Source: Chroococcidiopsis sp. TS-821 (lineage in GTDB: Bacteria > Cyanobacteriota > Cyanobacteriia > Cyanobacteriales > Chroococcidiopsidaceae). Taken from it: a DNA stretch of 64,000 nucleotides. The DNA is taken from NCBI RefSeq assembly GCF_002939305.1, contig NZ_MVDI01000011.1, positions 62,001 through 126,000 on the forward strand, in the 5' to 3' direction. The position numbers were made by a program, and so were the translations under genes. The notes beneath the pieces are model-generated. The model did not search any database, was not told the DNA's origin, and saw nothing but the letters and a program-made list of their open reading frames with translations. This document shows positions 6,339 through 42,721 of the stretch, one piece after another. Position 1 is the stretch's first letter, and the number at the start of each line of letters is the position of its first letter.

Positions 6339-6359
6339 GGGTAGGTGTCGTGCCTACCC
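6339..6359. repeat. Palindromic hairpin after the RTX gene
   Basis: GGGTAGG (6339-6345) pairs perfectly with CCTACCC (6353-6359) around a seven-base loop, just after the RTX stop. No T-run follows. It may be a dispersed intergenic palindrome or a weak bidirectional terminator between the convergent RTX and ilvD genes. Confidence 0.5.
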
Positions 6360-6414
6360 TAAACAGTATATGTTTACCCGCTTAGCATAAAACTCTGCAA
6401 CTTTACAACACTTA

Positions 6415-8097
6415 CTACAAGTCTAAATCGGTGACAGCACCAACACTGCTAGATGATACCAATTTGGCATATTTCGCTAAAACACCTTTAGTGTAGCGTG
6501 GTGGACGCGGTTGCCAATTTTGCCGGCGCGATCGCAATTCTTCATCGGATACGTGCAGTTGTAACAAGCGCTGTGGTGCATCAATCGTGATGATGTCCCC
6601 TTCTTGCACAAGTGCGATCGTACCTCCTACTGCTGCTTCTGGCGCAACGTGACCGACGACCATACCATAAGTACCGCCGGAAAACCGTCCATCGGTGATT
6701 AATCCTACCGAGTCACCTAACCCCGCACCAATAATTGCACTTGTAGGCGCTAGCATTTCGCGCATTCCAGGACCCCCTTTAGGACCTTCGTAGCGAATGA
6801 CTACGACATCACCAGCAACGATTTTGCCTGCCAAAATTGCATCTAAACAAGCTTCTTCTGATTCAAAGACACGCGCTGGACCTGTAATCACGGGCTTTTT
6901 CACGCCTGTAATTTTTGCAACTGCGCCTTCTGTGGCTAAATTGCCGCGTAAAATTGCTAAGTGTCCTTGGGGATATATTGGTTTATCCCAAGGGTGAATC
7001 ACAAATTGATCGGGACGTGGTTCGGCGGGAACATCAGCTAAAACTTCCGCAATCGTTTGTCCAGTAATTGTGAGTGCATCGCCGTGCAGTAAATCGTGGA
7101 CGAGTAGCATTTTCATGACTTGGGGGATTCCACCCGCACGATGCAAATCTGTCGCGACAAATTGTCCGCTGGGTTTTAAGTCACACAATACCGGAACGCG
7201 AGCGCGAATTGTTTCAAAGTCATCCAATGTTAACTCTACTCCCGCCGTATGCGCGATCGCAAGTAAATGTAACACAGCATTCGTCGAACCACCCACCGCC
7301 ATAATGACTGATATGGCATTTTCAAACGCTTTGCGCGTGAGAATTTGTCGAGGTAATAACTGTTTGCGAATGGCTTCTACTAATACAAAGGCAGATTTTT
7401 CGGTGCTATCAGCTTTTTCTGCATCTTCAGCTGCCATTGTCGAAGAATAGGGCAAACTCATTCCCATTGCTTCAAACGCGGAAGACATTGTGTTAGCTGT
7501 ATACATTCCTCCACAGGAACCTGCGCCAGGACACGCTTTGCGCTCGACTTCTAAAAGTTCTTCGTAAGGAATTCTACCTGCGCTGTATTCTCCGACAGCT
7601 TCAAACGCACTGACAATCGTTAAATCGCGTCCATTATGATGTCCAGGCTTGATCGTACCACCATAGACAAAAATTGCGGGAATATTCATGCGGGCGATCG
7701 CAATCATTGCCCCTGGCATATTTTTATCGCAACCACCGATCGCGAGGACACCATCCATACTTTGTCCGGTACACGCAGTTTCAATCGAATCTGCAATTAC
7801 TTCGCGCGACACCAAGGAATATTTCATTCCCTCGGTTCCCATCGAGATACCATCGCTGATGGTGATTGTACCGAACATTTGCGGCATTGCTCCGGCAGCG
7901 CGGATCCCTGCTTCTGCGCGTTGCGCGAGTTGATTAATTCCCATATTGCAGGGAGTGATTGTGCTGTAACTATTCGCAATTCCAACAATTGCTTTGAGAA
8001 AATCGTTATCTCCAAACCCTACCGCGCGTAGCATTGCACGATTAGGCGATCGCTGTACGCCTTGAGTAACAACGTGGCTTCTAAAATTGTCCGGCAT
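6415..8097 (-). CDS. ilvD: Dihydroxy-acid dehydratase
   Basis: Dehydrates 2,3-dihydroxy-isovalerate and 2,3-dihydroxy-3-methylvalerate to the 2-keto acids, the third common step of valine and isoleucine synthesis; cytosolic Fe-S enzyme. The 560-residue protein shows the three cluster-binding cysteine sites typical of IlvD/Edd: the CNMGINQL region near residue 50, [11 protein letters not shown] near 120 and [14 protein letters not shown] near 190. The C-terminal swivel domain carries SDGRFSGG. I start it at the ATG at 8097 ([13 protein letters not shown]), which matches the usual N-terminus; a TTG eight codons earlier is unnecessary. It is monocistronic as far as can be seen and converges with the RTX relic. 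Confidence 0.97.
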
Positions 8098-30683: not shown

Positions 30684-30779
30684 ATGTAAAACTTGTTGAG
30701 GGTTCTGTCGGGCGCGATCGCTACTGTTAACCCCTCCGGTAGTATTTTTGAACTGGGGAGAATCAGTTAAGATAACAAG

Positions 30780-30981
30780 GCACAAGTGATCTGTCACAGT
30801 AGAGGGAAACTTCGGTGTAAATCCGAGGCTGTGCCGCAGCTGTAACAAAAAGAGATGAGCGCTGAATGTGTTGAGTGTTGAACAGGTAAGACACTCCTTA
30901 CCGTATCTGAAGAAAATGAGTTCAAAACTCAAAATTCAAAGCTCAGATCTTTCTGAAGCCAGAATGCCTGACTGTGACTTG
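30780..30981 (+). promoter_or_regulatory. Cobalamin riboswitch upstream of cbiX
   Basis: Contains the conserved core GAGGGAAACTTCGGTGTAAA, then TGCCGCAGCTGTAAC, and the distal B12-box-like GAAGCCAGAATGCCTGAC. CAAGT near the 5' end can pair with ACTTG at the 3' end as P1. It ends about 48 bases before the cbiX ATG, so it probably blocks translation or terminates transcription of cbiX when adenosylcobalamin is plentiful. Confidence 0.92.
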
Positions 30982-31028
30982 CTCACATTATTTCCTGCGT
31001 CGCACAGGAACGGAGCACTTAAACAAGG

Positions 31029-32027
31029 ATGCCTACGATTAATACTCTTACTTCCACCCTACCAAAAAACCCAGTTAGTAAAATAGAACTACCCCCTTTA
31101 CCATTGCGTCGCCCGTTGCTCATGGTTGGTCACGGTACCAGAGATGCAGCAGGGCGACAAAGCGTTTTAGACTTTGCAGCTGCCTATCAAGCGTTAGATA
31201 CTTCTCGACCTGTTATCCCTTGTTTTTTAGAACTAACAGGTCCAACGATTCAAGAAGGCGTCGATCAGTGTGTTGCGCAAGGGTATACTGAACTTTCTGT
31301 CTTACCCATTTTGTTATTTGCGGCGCGGCATAATAAGTTTGATGTTACCAATGAACTTGACCGCGCGCGCCAACGCCATCCCCAGGTGAAATTTCACTAC
31401 GGACGGCATTTTGGCATTACACCAAGAATTATCGATTTGTGGCGATCGCGTCTAGCTGAAGTTGACGAGCCTCAGTACGATCGCGCCGATACAGTTTTAT
31501 TATTTGTCGGGCGCGGTTCGAGCGATCCTGATGCTAATGGCGATGTTTATAAACTTGCGCGTATTCTTTGGGAAGGTAGTGGTTATCAAACCGTAGAAAC
31601 CTGTTTTATTGGTATTACCCATCCACGCCTCGAAGAAGGTTTCCGCCGCGCGCGACTTTACCAACCCAAACGCATTATTGTGCTTCCCTACTTTCTCTTT
31701 ACGGGATTATTAGTCAAAAAGATCTTCGATATCACCGCACAGCAACAAGCACAATATCCAGAGATCGCTATTACCTGTCTTCCAGAAATGGGACTACATC
31801 CGCAGTTATTTTCGATTTTGCGCGATCGCGAAATTGAAACTCAACTAGGCAACGTGCAGATGAACTGCGAAATGTGCAAGTTTCGCCTTGCAGCCCTAAA
31901 AAGCTGCGATCGCGAGCACAACCACCATCATCACCATCACCATCACAGTCACGAACACTCACATTCTGAAGTAGATCCTTACGTCGAACTCGAACAATAC
32001 CACCAAAAAATTTGGCAAGTTCCTTAA
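31029..32027 (+). CDS. cbiX: Sirohydrochlorin cobaltochelatase CbiX (long form)
   Basis: Inserts Co2+ into sirohydrochlorin at the start of the anaerobic-type B12 pathway; cytosolic. The 332-residue protein has two tandem CbiX/chelatase domains: the first starts [15 protein letters not shown] near residue 34, the second [15 protein letters not shown] near 158. After them comes MNCEMCKFR, the M-x-C-x-x-C motif reported to hold a 4Fe-4S centre in CbiX-L proteins, and then a metal-binding histidine tract (about 13 His in 20 residues) before the C-terminus. It is directly behind a cobalamin riboswitch. The role fits cobD at 19360. Confidence 0.95.
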
Positions 32028-37614: not shown

Positions 37615-37876
37615 TTGAGCGATACAAATCAAAAATACTATGGCAGAGTTCAGCGGTCAAAAATCAAAGTTACAAGCTAGCTTGTTAATTCCTTGCAGTT
37701 ATTTTGCTTTGGTAGCGATCGCTCATTACTTTCGTAATTCAGGGTTGTGCAAGTGTTAAGGAAGAATCGCTTTACAGCTTAGTGGAGCAAGCTCAATATA
37801 GATCGCAATGTGCTGTAGCAAATTGCCAGCGAGTCTATGCCTCACGTTGTTCTAACTATGTTATAGTTTACGCAGC
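37615..37876. other. Intergenic region before the metE riboswitch
   Basis: Contains the end of the two-component operon and presumably the metE promoter. No gene, clear terminator or strong promoter match recognised. A HIP1-like GCGATCGC is at about 37716. Confidence 0.35.
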
Positions 37877-37996
37877 TATCGGTTTTGATGGGGATCAGCC
37901 ATCAAACGTAAGGGGGAAAGTTCGGTGTAAATCCGGCACTGTCCCGCAACTGTGATGAGAGCATTGTTGCTTTCTTAGTCAGGATGCCCGCCGATG
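37877..37996 (+). promoter_or_regulatory. Cobalamin riboswitch upstream of metE
   Basis: Shows GATCAGCCATCAAACG, the core GGGGGAAAGTTCGGTGTAAA, CCCGCAACTGTGATGAG, and the B12 box GTCAGGATGCCCGCC. ATCGG at 37879-37883 can pair with CCGAT at 37991-37995 as P1. A small hairpin TCTCC-TAT-GGAGA follows at about 38000-38012. The metE ATG is about 340 bases further, leaving room for an expression platform. B12 binding should switch off metE and the two genes behind it. Confidence 0.93.
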
Positions 37997-38332
37997 TGTC
38001 TCCTATGGAGAGAAGCAAACCTGTCGTTTTTCATCTGCGAGGTACGGATGATGGTCAATGTAGCTTTCAAACAATTCATTGCGCTTAGGGCATTTCTTGA
38101 GTTGAGTTTGTAGCGTCCTCATTTGAAATTGCCGTTTTGTAGAAGATTAGCCGTATCCAAGTAATAGCTAGTTTGAAGTCATTCCTTAGAGGTGGCTTTA
38201 ATTAGTCTTACCTAAAGATCGCTGAACTCTACTGGACAAATTTTCTGTTGCTCTCGATTGGTTCACTTTGCTTGTTTATGGCGAAGATGAGCAGCTTTTG
38301 ATGACTATTTTTAGCACTATGACGCTACAACC
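37997..38332 (+). other. metE leader between riboswitch and start codon
   Basis: About 336 bases of transcribed leader. It includes the TCTCCTATGGAGA hairpin right after the B12 box. No clear intrinsic terminator with a T-run was found, and no open frame of note. The sequence before the metE ATG (ACGCTACAACC) lacks a strong Shine-Dalgarno. Confidence 0.4.
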
Positions 38333-40591
38333 ATGACTCTTCAAACAAGACTGCAAACTGCAACCCTAGGCTATCCCCACATTGGTAAAAATCGCGAAGT
38401 AAAAAAGGCATTGGAAGCCTTTTGGAGCGGTAAATCCGACGCAGAGACTTTACTGCAAATCGTGCAGGAGGTGGAGTGCAAGAACTGGCAAACTCAATTA
38501 GAAGCAGGCATTGCTCGCATCGGTATTGGCGATGCGACACTCTACGATCGCGTCTTGGATTGGAGCATCCGACTAGGCATTATTCCAGAGCGATATCGAA
38601 CCTTGACAGGACTGGAGCAGTACTTTGCAATGGCACGCGGCAAAGATGGTATTCCAGCGCTCGCAATGACCAAATGGTTTGATACCAACTATCACTATCT
38701 GGTGCCCGAAATTACCCAGTCTTTGCAGCCAGCGGATTTCAGTGATTTCCTAGCAACAGTGCATCGCGCTCAAGCATTGTTGGGCGATCGCGCCGTTCCC
38801 ATTGTCATAGGTCCCATTACCCTGCTGCGGCTCAGTCGGCTGGAGTCAAACCCAGAAAAAATCATCTTTGATTTGCGCGATCGCTATCTCGTCTTACTCC
38901 GCGAACTGAAAAATCTGGGTGTAGTCGAGGTTCAAATACACGAACCGGCTTTGGTATTGGGAGACGCTCCCAACTTCAAAGAACTTTATCAGTCAACTTA
39001 CGATTCTTTCAGTCGAGTCGGCTTGCCGATTCACCTTGTTACCTACTTTGATGATTTAGGAGCGGCGTATCCCTGGGTAATGAAATTGCCAGTGGCTGGC
39101 ATCAGTTTGGACTTCACCCGCGGTCGCAACCTGGAGTTATTGCAACAGCACGGATTTCCATCGGATAAACAGTTGGGTGTAGGAATTGTCGATGCGCGCA
39201 ACATTTGGAAGATTCGTCCTGAAGCGGTGTTATCTACGCTAGAAACCATCCAAAGCATCACATTGAACATCCGACTACATCCCTCGTCATCGCTGCAATT
39301 TGTTCCCTATGATGCTACGAGAGAAACCAAACTGCCGGAACCACTGCGCAATGTGTTGAGTTTCGCACAACAAAAGCTGGACGAGGTAGCGCTCCTGGCA
39401 CAAACGCTCGCTGGGGGCGATCCGAGCGACAAATTAGCCGCAGTGCAAATGCATTGGAAAGCCTTTGAGCAATTCAGTCCGGCAAATCCAGCGGTACAAG
39501 AGCGGCTGCGCAATCTGACCGTCCAGGATTTGGAACGTGCTGTTCCCTATGAGCAACGCAAAACACTCCAGCCAACGCTACCGCCCTTTCCCACTACCAC
39601 AATTGGTTCTTTTCCGCAAACCTCAGAGGTACGGCAACTGCGGGTGAAGCTGAAGCGGGGTGAAATTACGCCAGCCGAGTACGAAGCGGCGATCGACGCT
39701 GAAATTGCTAAGTGCATCCAAATTCAAGAAGAAGCTGGGCTAGATGTGTTGGTGCATGGCGAATTTGAACGCACTGACATGGTGGAATTCTTTGGACAGC
39801 AGCTCTCTGGATTTGCCTTTACCGAACACGGTTGGGTGCAAAGCTATGGCAGTCGCTGTGTACGTCCGCCGATTATTTACGGAGATGTCGCCCGAACCCA
39901 ACCCATGACCCTTCGGGAGTTTAAGGTAGCGCAATCCCTCACCAATAAAATCGTGAAGGGAATGCTGACTGGACCTGTGACGATGATTAACTGGTCGTTT
40001 ACCCGTATCGATATTCCTCGCAGCGAACAGGCGATGCAGATTGCTTTGGCACTGCGGGAGGAAGTCGCAGATTTAGAAGCGGCTGGGGCGAAGATGGTGC
40101 AGATTGATGAACCCGCTCTGCGGGAGGGATTACCTCTGAAGCCAGAACGCTGGAATGAGTACCTATCCTGGGCAGTCGATGCGTTCCGTTTGGCTGCTGG
40201 AGTTGCCAAGCCAGAAACCCAAATTCACACGCATATGTGCTACTCCGAATTCGGCGACATCATTCAGCACATTGAACGTTTGGATGCAGATGTGTTGTCA
40301 ATCGAGAATAGCCGCAGCAACAATGAAACCCTGTTTGAAATTACCAATGCGGGCTATAAACATCAAGTCGGTAACGGCGTGTACGATGTCCACAGTCCAG
40401 CCATACCCAGTACTGAACAGATGGTGCAGCAGCTAAAAATGGGAGTCGCTAATCTACCAAACGAACAAATCTGGGTCAATCCCGATTGCGGTCTCAAAAC
40501 ACGGCGCTGGGAAGAGGTAATCCCGTCGCTGAAAAACATGGTAGAAGCTGCAAAAATCATCAGGGAGGAAGTGAATGCGACCAAGAAATGA
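38333..40591 (+). CDS. metE: Cobalamin-independent methionine synthase
   Basis: Transfers a methyl group from 5-methyltetrahydropteroyl-glutamate to homocysteine, making methionine without B12; cytosolic, zinc-dependent. The 752-residue protein has the two (beta-alpha)8 barrels of MetE. All four zinc ligands of the E. coli enzyme are present at a constant offset: His near 634 and Cys 636 (HTHMCYSEF), Glu near 658 (SIENSR), Cys near 719 (NPDCGLKT). The N-terminus TLGYPHIGKNREVKKALE is typical. It is the first gene behind a cobalamin riboswitch. The stop overlaps the next gene by 17 bases. Most cyanobacteria use MetH, so metE is a less usual, probably backup, enzyme here. Confidence 0.97.
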   Translation: MTLQTRLQTATLGYPHIGKNREVKKALEAFWSGKSDAETLLQIVQEVECKNWQTQLEAGIARIGIGDATLYDRVLDWSIRLGIIPERYRTLTGLEQYFAMARGKDGIPALAMTKWFDTNYHYLVPEITQSLQPADFSDFLATVHRAQALLGDRAVPIVIGPITLLRLSRLESNPEKIIFDLRDRYLVLLRELKNLGVVEVQIHEPALVLGDAPNFKELYQSTYDSFSRVGLPIHLVTYFDDLGAAYPWVMKLPVAGISLDFTRGRNLELLQQHGFPSDKQLGVGIVDARNIWKIRPEAVLSTLETIQSITLNIRLHPSSSLQFVPYDATRETKLPEPLRNVLSFAQQKLDEVALLAQTLAGGDPSDKLAAVQMHWKAFEQFSPANPAVQERLRNLTVQDLERAVPYEQRKTLQPTLPPFPTTTIGSFPQTSEVRQLRVKLKRGEITPAEYEAAIDAEIAKCIQIQEEAGLDVLVHGEFERTDMVEFFGQQLSGFAFTEHGWVQSYGSRCVRPPIIYGDVARTQPMTLREFKVAQSLTNKIVKGMLTGPVTMINWSFTRIDIPRSEQAMQIALALREEVADLEAAGAKMVQIDEPALREGLPLKPERWNEYLSWAVDAFRLAAGVAKPETQIHTHMCYSEFGDIIQHIERLDADVLSIENSRSNNETLFEITNAGYKHQVGNGVYDVHSPAIPSTEQMVQQLKMGVANLPNEQIWVNPDCGLKTRRWEEVIPSLKNMVEAAKIIREEVNATKK

Positions 40592-41033
40592 ACTCTGGCA
40601 GGGATGCTCTGGCTACTGGCAGAATTACTTCATCGAGCAGAACTTGCTCCTGCTCGGATATGCTGCTTGGAATGGTTATCTGAATCGCGGACGGGGTATT
40701 CTGATTTGTGAGGTGACGGATGTGATTCCTGCTGCCATCGATTGGCAGGTTGAACGAGTTGGGTTTAGTCAGCAGTTTGTCCCGCAGGGTCAAATTGCAT
40801 CCTATTTACAGGAAACTGAGCTAGAGCAAGCCGTAATTCAGCGCTTGGTGCAAACTATTGCGACCTACGATTTTAACCGTGAAATGGTCATCCTGATTCG
40901 GAGCAGTGGAACCATTGATATCAACCTTTTGCAACCAAAGATCGCTCCACTGAGTTGCTATGAACAGGTAAAGCACCGTTGGGCAGAGTTTCAGTCAGAC
41001 TTTTTACTGCCACCAGGGAGGTCTTGTGTCTGA
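40575..41033 (+). CDS. Unknown protein A of the metE operon (paralog of the next gene)
   Basis: I do not recognise this 152-residue protein. It starts inside the last codons of metE (ATG 40575) behind a strong Shine-Dalgarno, GGGAGG, located in metE, so translation is coupled. It is clearly homologous to its downstream neighbour: both share a front block NYFIEQNLLLLGYAAWNGYL followed by RGILIC, and an end block LSCYEQVKHRWAEFQ. No signal peptide or transmembrane helix; mixed alpha/beta with short hydrophobic strands (REMVILIRSSGTIDINLL). Three cysteines (about 11, 45 and 129 by eye) are candidates for structural or ligand roles. Riboswitch control implies a role when B12 is scarce, by inference. 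Confidence 0.75.
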   Translation: MRPRNELWQGCSGYWQNYFIEQNLLLLGYAAWNGYLNRGRGILICEVTDVIPAAIDWQVERVGFSQQFVPQGQIASYLQETELEQAVIQRLVQTIATYDFNREMVILIRSSGTIDINLLQPKIAPLSCYEQVKHRWAEFQSDFLLPPGRSCV

Positions 41034-41490
41034 AACATCTAAAGTAACAAATCAGCTAATAGACTGGCAGCAAGAGTTTATTGCCAAGAATCTACTGGTA
41101 CTTGGCTACAATGCTTGGGTTGGGTATCTCAATGGCGAGCGGGGTGCTGTTATTTGCAGTATGAATGCGCCAAAGATAGGAGTGACTGGAGAGAGTTGCC
41201 AAACTTACTTTGTACAGCGATCGCGTTTGGCAGCATTTCTGAATGCTTGGCTTGCTGCTCCCGACACGGTGATTTTGCGTCACCACTTTATGAACGCGCA
41301 TATTCTGGAAGCCGTGGATACATACAATCCCGCCACAGAGTTAGTGTTTCTTTTGGAATCGTTCAATCAAGTAACATTCTTCTACCTGAAAAATCTCCCG
41401 ATGACGCCGCCTCAGTGTTACGAGCAGGTCTGCAAAAGCTGGGAAGAATTTCAGCCTACTGGTAGCTTGCGATCGAAGCCGAGTCATTAG
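41026..41490 (+). CDS. Unknown protein B of the metE operon (paralog of the previous gene)
   Basis: 154 residues, unrecognised family. GTG start at 41026 behind GGGAGG, overlapping the stop of protein A by eight bases. Shared with protein A: WQQEFIAKNLLVLGYNAWVG, the YL-x(4)-RG-x-x-IC block, a central hydrophobic region, TELVFLLESFNQVTFFYL as equivalent of the late strands, and PPQCYEQVCKSWEEFQ at the end. Identity looks like about a quarter to a third overall, so the duplication is old and both copies have been kept. No membrane helix or signal. The two proteins may form a heterodimer; this is a guess from pairing alone. Confidence 0.75.
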   Translation: MSETSKVTNQLIDWQQEFIAKNLLVLGYNAWVGYLNGERGAVICSMNAPKIGVTGESCQTYFVQRSRLAAFLNAWLAAPDTVILRHHFMNAHILEAVDTYNPATELVFLLESFNQVTFFYLKNLPMTPPQCYEQVCKSWEEFQPTGSLRSKPSH

Positions 41491-41697: not shown

Positions 41698-42384
41698 CTA
41701 TGACGTTCGCGTCCGGTAGGGCATGGGATCTTCTAATCCCAACTCGGCAAAAGCCGCGAGACGCAATCGACAAGCATCGCAAACCCCACACGCGATCGCA
41801 CCTCCTGCATAGCAAGACCAAGTTTTTTCCCAAGGAACACCTAGCTGATTGCCTAATTGAATAATTTCTGTTTTCTTCAAGTTAATCAATGGTGTCTCGA
41901 TCGTTATCGGTTGTCCTTCGCGTCCTTGCTTCGTACCGAGGCGAAACACCTCCTGCATCGCTTGAATATAGTCGGGACGACAATCAGGATATCCAGAGTA
42001 ATCAAGCGCGTTCACGCCGATGTAAACGCGCTGTGCTGCGATCGTTTCGGCATAAGCTAAAGCAAAGCTTAAAAAAATTGTATTGCGCGCTGGAACATAT
42101 GTCACAGGCACATTTTGAGCCATCTCTGACACCGCGCGATTGCTTGGTAATTCAATACTGGTATCCGTTAATGCTGAACCACCCCACGACCGCAGATCGA
42201 AATCGATCACTTTGTGAACGAGAACTTGCGTCGATTGCGCGATCGCGATCGCTGCTTTTAACTCGCGCTGATGTCGCTGTTGATAATCAAACGAAATTGC
42301 ATAGCACTTGTAACCATCAGCCACTGCTTGGTACAGTACCGTAGAAGAATCTAATCCCCCAGACAATAAAATGACGGCTTTCAT
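41698..42384 (-). CDS. queC: 7-cyano-7-deazaguanine synthase
   Basis: Converts 7-carboxy-7-deazaguanine to preQ0 with ATP and ammonia, in queuosine biosynthesis; cytosolic. The 228-residue protein starts MKAVILLSGGLDSST with the PP-loop SGGLDS at 8-13. Further signatures are VPARNTIFLSFALAYAE near 110-126 and the zinc-binding C-terminus with CYAGGAIACGVCDACRLR. ATG at 42384 was chosen; the five extra upstream residues (MRGWL) are not family-like. No preQ1 riboswitch is visible upstream and no other que gene is nearby. Convergent with the metE operon. Confidence 0.96.
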   Translation of the reverse strand: MKAVILLSGGLDSSTVLYQAVADGYKCYAISFDYQQRHQRELKAAIAIAQSTQVLVHKVIDFDLRSWGGSALTDTSIELPSNRAVSEMAQNVPVTYVPARNTIFLSFALAYAETIAAQRVYIGVNALDYSGYPDCRPDYIQAMQEVFRLGTKQGREGQPITIETPLINLKKTEIIQLGNQLGVPWEKTWSCYAGGAIACGVCDACRLRLAAFAELGLEDPMPYRTRTS

Positions 42385-42721
42385 CAACCAACCTCTCAAC
42401 TCAATAATCTTGTTTATTTCTCATTTTCCTGACCCCTGACCTCTGACCCTCGATCTTTTAACATAGGGACAGGTAAGAAACTGACACATGATGCCAACGC
42501 TGCGCACATCAGCAAAATCACAATGAGTGAAGCTTAGCTTGGTGATAAACGTGACAATCATCGGAACATATAAGTAATTTTGAAATTCTTCATAAATAGA
42601 GTCACTATGCTACCATCTGGATGATTTAAGAACTTTAATCCAGTTAGGATTGCGTATTGGCGCTGTTACAGATGCGTCTTTACATTTTGGTGGTGGAGGA
42701 GAAGACAGAGGAGTGCAAAGC
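42385..42721. other. Divergent intergenic region with heptad repeat
   Basis: Promoter region of queC and the Gfo/Idh gene. It includes a tandem heptad repeat at 42428-42455 (separate entry). GGAGGAGAAGACAGAGGAG just before the ATG at 42722 provides a ribosome-binding site. No gene seen. Confidence 0.45.
42428..42455. repeat. Heptanucleotide tandem repeat, CTGAC type
   Basis: Four seven-base units TCCTGAC, CCCTGAC, CTCTGAC, CCTCGAT, the same motif as at 24815-24849. Confidence 0.65.

Follow-up and report, generated by a model that had tools for sequence, protein, structure and literature searches.

The window analysed here is a stretch of 64,000 nucleotides from Chroococcidiopsis sp. TS-821 (contig NZ_MVDI01000011.1, positions 62,001 to 126,000), and our subject is an operon within it in which a cobalamin (B12) riboswitch precedes metE, the gene for B12-independent methionine synthase, and two small genes that we call A and B (Table 1). 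The riboswitch scores above the gathering threshold of its Rfam family (31.5 bits) across the full model, and MetE passes the curated cut-off at full length (profile positions 1-754). The reading frames overlap by 17 bases between metE and A and by 8 bases between A and B, and GGGAGG lies ahead of the start of A and likewise ahead of that of B, confirming the B12-riboswitch operon described in the original prediction, which had been made from the DNA alone.

Table 1. Parts of the metE operon; positions are those of the window.
Feature	Position	Strand	Evidence
Cobalamin (B12) riboswitch aptamer, head of transcription unit	37863..38009	+	RF00174, 58.9 bits, full model 1-189
metE, B12-independent methionine synthase, 752 amino acids	38333..40591	+	TIGR01371, 937.5 bits, cut-off 929.95
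Protein A, 152 amino acids, ATG start, predicted CcmS fold, fast-evolving widespread type	40575..41033	+	Open reading frame, relatives, AlphaFold2 model
Protein B, 154 amino acids, GTG start, predicted CcmS fold, conserved mostly metE-linked clade	41026..41490	+	Open reading frame, clade, AlphaFold2 model

The alignment of A and B spans 140 columns at 32% identity (E 7e-19), and we therefore consider them paralogs rather than proteins with a chance likeness, in agreement with the duplication that had been proposed for them. They are the sole copies of their family in the TS-821 genome (sequence search with A, E ≤ 1). No Pfam family reaches E 1 with either protein, and a Pfam scan of 90 relatives gave nothing beyond single weak matches.

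The constant link of the A/B family is B12 control, rather than metE. We sampled 291 genomes of the class. Searching them with A as a single query sequence finds relatives in 85 (E ≤ 1e-3), and a family profile finds them in 102 at the same threshold. At E ≤ 1e-20, a limit of our own choice that defines a "strong" match, the profile finds 85 genomes, the other 17 being weaker. Most, not all, matches of the single-sequence search were fetched with their surroundings as 80 regions, of which 78 were used for the riboswitch count (L109 and L111 are duplicates, and L001 was unused; L and G numbers are our labels for loci and genomes). A covariance model detected a cobalamin riboswitch in 70 of the 78 loci, in 69 of them upstream and on the same strand; the chance of a riboswitch within 3 kb upstream of a random gene is approximately 0.07%, assuming roughly 2.2 riboswitches per 5 Mb. 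Since this model was built from 14 sequences, 12 of them from upstream of A/B genes, and thus leans on the loci in question, we checked it against Rfam's own: RF00174 is above its gathering score in all 34 loci checked (11 + 11 + 12). The riboswitch of L068 is a weak match (29.9 bits). The eight misses are L039 and L047, with a contig end nearby on the upstream side; L082, whose contig starts approximately 775 bases before a metE that misses its first approximately 230 positions; L094, a 4-kb contig with a long open frame from B to the contig end; the decayed fragments L100 and L108; L102, the most distant relative; and L075, where an A-type protein carries the C-terminal end of metE as an in-frame fusion (oriented 6348-7040) and the covariance model found no riboswitch in the fetched stretch.

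The second result concerns the fold. The AlphaFold2 models have a predicted local distance difference test score of 84.8 and a predicted template modelling score of 0.77 for A, and of 82.0 and 0.75 for B, with the same predicted order in both: 2 helices, 2 strands, 2 helices, 2 strands, and 2 helices. In Foldseek searches against the PDB, the only fold matched at E ≤ 1e-3 is that of CcmS, a beta-carboxysome assembly chaperone (Slr1911; NF049993; PDB 9iur, 9iv7, and 8zlh). A matches 9iur (Synechocystis CcmS) at E 5.2e-6 and 8zlh at E 5.2e-5 (next 0.078), and B matches them at E 6.8e-6 and 3.0e-4 (next 0.023); the target template modelling (TM) scores of the predicted models are 0.56-0.61. At profile level, an hhalign comparison of the family with 24 CcmS sequences gave a probability of 96.2 and E 2.4e-9 over 105 columns, which include YDP-x2-E and PPxC(Y/F) blocks. 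At a limit of E ≤ 0.1, the NCBIfam CcmS model picks up 36 of the 90 members, the best of them at 1.8e-4, and a match of the family profile to Slr1911 among PDB sequences (E 0.0089) had been merely suggestive before the fold search. The only match of A itself among PDB sequences, autophagy protein 16 (E 0.029), was judged to be noise.

From these comparisons, A and B are distant homologs of CcmS and not CcmS itself, because with NF049993 they score 16.9 and 13.6 bits, far under the cut-off of 125, and because the genome has a true ccmS of its own on another contig (216 bits). Among 20 strong A/B genomes searched, only 3 have a CcmS match (E ≤ 0.001). The statement that A and B have no described function stands for the literature that we searched, where we found no description of the family and most subscription papers were outside reach, but it has to be qualified by this homology. 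Fold and homology could also be taken to mean that A and B act on CcmK shell proteins at low B12, like CcmS. We regard such a carboxysome link as very improbable: both proteins lie more than 100 bits under the CcmS cut-off in a genome with its own ccmS, no carboxysome gene was found among the annotated neighbour clusters (not all neighbours are annotated), and, in an alignment-based mapping, most positions that contact CcmK1 do not look conserved. The location differs too, as A and B stand behind cobalamin riboswitches, whereas Nostoc ccmS is reported among carboxysome genes in the accessible part of PMC11635287. A small gene upstream of one clade of relatives (cluster c14) was considered as ccmK, with that clade as true CcmS; riboswitch matches and a CcmS search gave this no support, and the idea was dropped. 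Separately, a weaker CcmS-like branch (L113-L118, L125, and L130) has several copies per genome in one genus, with four on the smaller contigs of G158, and neither of two proteins tested from it meets any Pfam cut-off.

We next consider metE. It is present in 35 of the 291 genomes (E ≤ 1e-100), compared to 281 for metH and 272 for RF00174 at E ≤ 0.001 (264 above the cut-off; one to five found per positive genome, scoring being limited to eight candidates in each). Strong A/B matches occur in 22 of the 35 genomes with metE versus 63 of the 256 without it (odds ratio 5.2, p 1.2e-5, uncorrected for genome relatedness). A/B is associated with metE, yet the majority of A/B genomes have none: 63 of the 85 strong A/B genomes are without a metE match, so the family does not occur only with metE, and 13 of the 35 metE genomes are without a strong A/B match. 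Of the co-occurrence across cyanobacteria that had been proposed as a check, the riboswitch part is borne out in 70 of 78 loci, and the metE part extends to just 22 of 85 strong genomes. Three strong A/B genomes have no metH match (G096, G261, and G267), of which G261 and G267 are 78% and 77% complete. The G096 assembly is 96% complete and has metE and a B-type gene, with no metH match at E ≤ 1e-100; B12-free methionine synthesis is possible in this organism.

The two proteins differ in how closely they follow metE. Of 99 profile matches, 89 were kept after dropping those that span fewer than 110 positions or exceed 170 amino acids (the latter filter excluded the B copy of L052) and the L112 duplicates; together with the two window proteins this makes 91, of which 90 were aligned (L082:2331-2714 was excluded), and L102 and L089 were placed in neither clade for residue counts. 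The B rows form one clade of 26 (Shimodaira-Hasegawa-like approximate likelihood ratio test 95) in a quick tree that leaves 35 of 87 inner branches open. metE lies upstream in the loci of 19 of these rows, being incomplete in L047 and L082 and separated by other genes in L081, L096, and L097. The other rows are L035, L044, L045, and L057, with a metE relic or trace; L094, on its short contig; and L046 and L048, in which no credible metE trace was seen. In the 10 loci where metE, A, and B are all full length (45 pairs), identity averages 0.77 for MetE, 0.69 for B, and 0.43 for A. The slow evolution of the B clade and its proximity to metE, together with the overlapping frames in the window and the excess of A/B among metE genomes, would suit a pair of proteins dedicated to MetE, which they might protect, feed, or repair.

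The fate of A and B where metE has been lost bears directly on this proposal. In L034, L065, L068, L044, L045, and L095, the metE that lies between the riboswitch and A has lost its middle, and its two ends remain in one frame. The relic open reading frames of the first five (104, 93, 106, 41, and 41 codons, respectively) retain the metE start region and stop and overlap A by exactly 17 bases, like the full metE in the window; in L095, the A gene itself appears decayed. L035 and L057 contain metE traces out of frame and L052 an end piece only. No metE was matched elsewhere in any of these nine genomes or in G250 (L075) at E ≤ 1e-100. That A outlasts metE is a solid observation, and independence from an intact metE holds for A above all. 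L044 and L045 probably share a single event. The excess of in-frame relics has p 0.045 when 5 of 7 scorable events are counted and p 0.10 with 4 of 6, and selection for the reading frame is therefore only suggested. B is retained in L035, L044, L045, and L057, is part of a 195-codon frame in L052, is reduced to a fragment in L034 and L065, and was not seen in L068 and L095. The fragments in L034 and L065 fit a MetE-dedicated partner. The persistence of A beside relics and of B in four such loci, in genomes with no other metE, does not, nor do the 63 strong genomes without metE, the 13 metE genomes without strong A/B, and MetE ends that are similar whether A/B is present or not. A role dedicated to MetE is, in our judgement, quite unlikely, and what remains of the proposal that A and B act with MetE when B12 is scarce is the tie to B12, with a general link to MetE given up and B closer to the enzyme than A.

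Which other genes share the switch was determined for the 69 loci with a same-strand upstream riboswitch; partner names rest on one to three scanned representatives per gene cluster, and L103, where a reverse gene separates the riboswitch from a decayed gene, was left out. The partners are a methyltransferase (23 loci), DUF1636 (21), metE (19), CobW (12), a metE relic or trace (9), a CMAS-like protein (6), and a UbiH-like protein (3), plus two types of desaturase, in 12 and 10 loci, which together cover 21. We take the methyltransferase to resemble plastoquinone/tocopherol (MPBQ/MSBQ) methyltransferases. Divided along lines of our own choosing into a replacement type (metE or relic, desaturase, methyltransferase, CMAS-like, UbiH-like) and a cobalt type, partners of the former occur in 55 loci and of the latter in 24, with both in 19 and neither in 9; the cobalt-type count is a lower bound, as HupE of L060 was missed in the gene runs. 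For comparison, 20 riboswitch loci outside the strong A/B genomes were picked among the best-scoring riboswitches, not at random, and 18 gave a gene run. HupE, CobW, or DUF1636 is found in 8 of these runs and CbiQ in one more; three share clusters of the CbiQ locus's neighbours, and one has the methyltransferase. None of the 18 matches the metE or desaturase clusters, and their remaining genes are unannotated.

This list supports two rivals that we regard as serious, if unlikely. The first is that A is an accessory subunit of a second desaturase and/or a methyltransferase in a B12-regulated lipid/quinone branch, metE being merely a co-regulated neighbour. Besides the counts given above, it can draw on PMC2211319, in the accessible part of which a fatty-acid desaturase behind cobalamin riboswitches (COG1398, 'ole1') is reported, with the proposal that it belongs to a pair of isozymes, one dependent on B12 and the other independent of it. 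All 11 genomes tested carry one or more additional homologs of the linked desaturase (E ≤ 1e-20), which fits the idea of such a pair. Our loci differ from that system in having two desaturase types beside A-type genes, and the window itself has no desaturase. Moreover, 31 of the 69 loci, the window included, have neither desaturase nor methyltransferase, and there is nothing special about the desaturase tails. In L053, L055, L059, L085, and L086, an A-type gene, a desaturase, and a CMAS-like methyltransferase form one run behind a cobalamin riboswitch; a B12-regulated lipid pathway is possible for these runs.

The second is that A and B handle cobalt, another metal, or corrinoids, trafficking the metal or cobamide within the B12 regulon. 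DUF1636 and CobW are among the partners, and the proteins have candidate ligands: C45 (60/62) and C128 (62/62) are near-invariant in A, as are C44 (24/26) and H92 (26/26) in B, which also has a His-containing insertion (HH..H) relative to A. The second Cys is conserved at below 90% in B, however, and CcmS shows near-invariance at this position as well, which points to a structural role. In addition, a cobalt-type partner is absent from 45 of the 69 loci (by clusters, with HupE undercounted as noted), and neither Pfam nor the PDB fold search (E ≤ 1e-3) matched a metalloprotein.

The reading that we favour, with a probability of roughly 0.36, is that A and B are CcmS-like assembly or stability factors for enzymes made at low B12. 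B12 would repress A and B together with metE, since this is how cobalamin riboswitches work. In the accessible part of PMC11635287, CcmS is reported to be a homodimer that binds the 12-residue C-terminal tail of CcmK1. A and B would likewise be small dimers, perhaps an A-B heterodimer, with a chaperone-like activity that consists in holding a flexible part of a client protein. The client of B would be MetE above all; those of A would be the second fatty-acid desaturase, methyltransferases, and others.

Several observations weigh against this reading. No client protein was identified. The TM-scores are moderate (0.49-0.61) and the identity in structural alignments is 13-20%, and a common fold with CcmS need not imply a common activity. 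We mapped the reported CcmK1-contact residues Asp51, Gln53, Phe58, Tyr60, Asp126, and Glu130 through the hhalign alignment, inferring their numbers from the FVY motif; Phe58 is the only one whose position looks conserved. A comparison of 36 MetE C-termini, including 14 from 13 genomes that are not in the strong A/B set, showed no difference that follows the presence of A/B, the ends of 11 linked desaturases resemble those of 18 other desaturases of the same genomes, and neither comparison revealed a CcmK1-like tail. Finally, there are the nine loci with neither a replacement-type nor a cobalt-type partner.

A broader version, which we put forward tentatively and with considerable doubt, is that CcmS-fold assembly factors were recruited as a whole family to the B12-starvation programme of cyanobacteria, B serving the metE operon and A the riboswitch-linked lipid/quinone enzymes. 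Besides switching to B12-independent enzymes, cells would equip these with assembly factors of their own, and a lost metE would leave behind a short in-frame leader through which riboswitch control and translation reach A and sometimes B. Our results assign a widespread hypothetical family to B12 starvation as its regulatory setting and to the predicted CcmS fold, which opens its function to direct tests, and they carry this fold beyond the carboxysome. They also place new partners beside the desaturases linked to B12, for which a B12-dependent counterpart had been postulated in 2007 (PMC2211319, as far as its accessible part goes).

Both the fold and the riboswitch are of kinds already known; their combination is new. 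A riboswitch before metE is common to the window and to the known cobalamin-riboswitch regulon, and the accessible part of PMC2211319 describes metE, cobW, hupE, and btu genes under B12 elements. To this the window operon adds an unnamed module with the predicted CcmS fold that we did not find described in the literature searched. In Limnospira, a cobalamin riboswitch lies 337 bases before metE, and the accessible text of PMC8400943 that reports it makes no mention of A or B.

Two neighbouring features complete the picture of the window. A second cobalamin riboswitch (30767-30989, + strand), borderline at 31.5 bits, which is exactly the gathering score, sits 7 kb ahead of the metE riboswitch and precedes a CbiX gene with a His-rich end (31029-32027, + strand; PF01903, 2e-61); the genome has 2 RF00174 matches in total. 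After B follows a convergent gene (41698-42399, - strand), whose sequence resembles QueC of the queuosine pathway.

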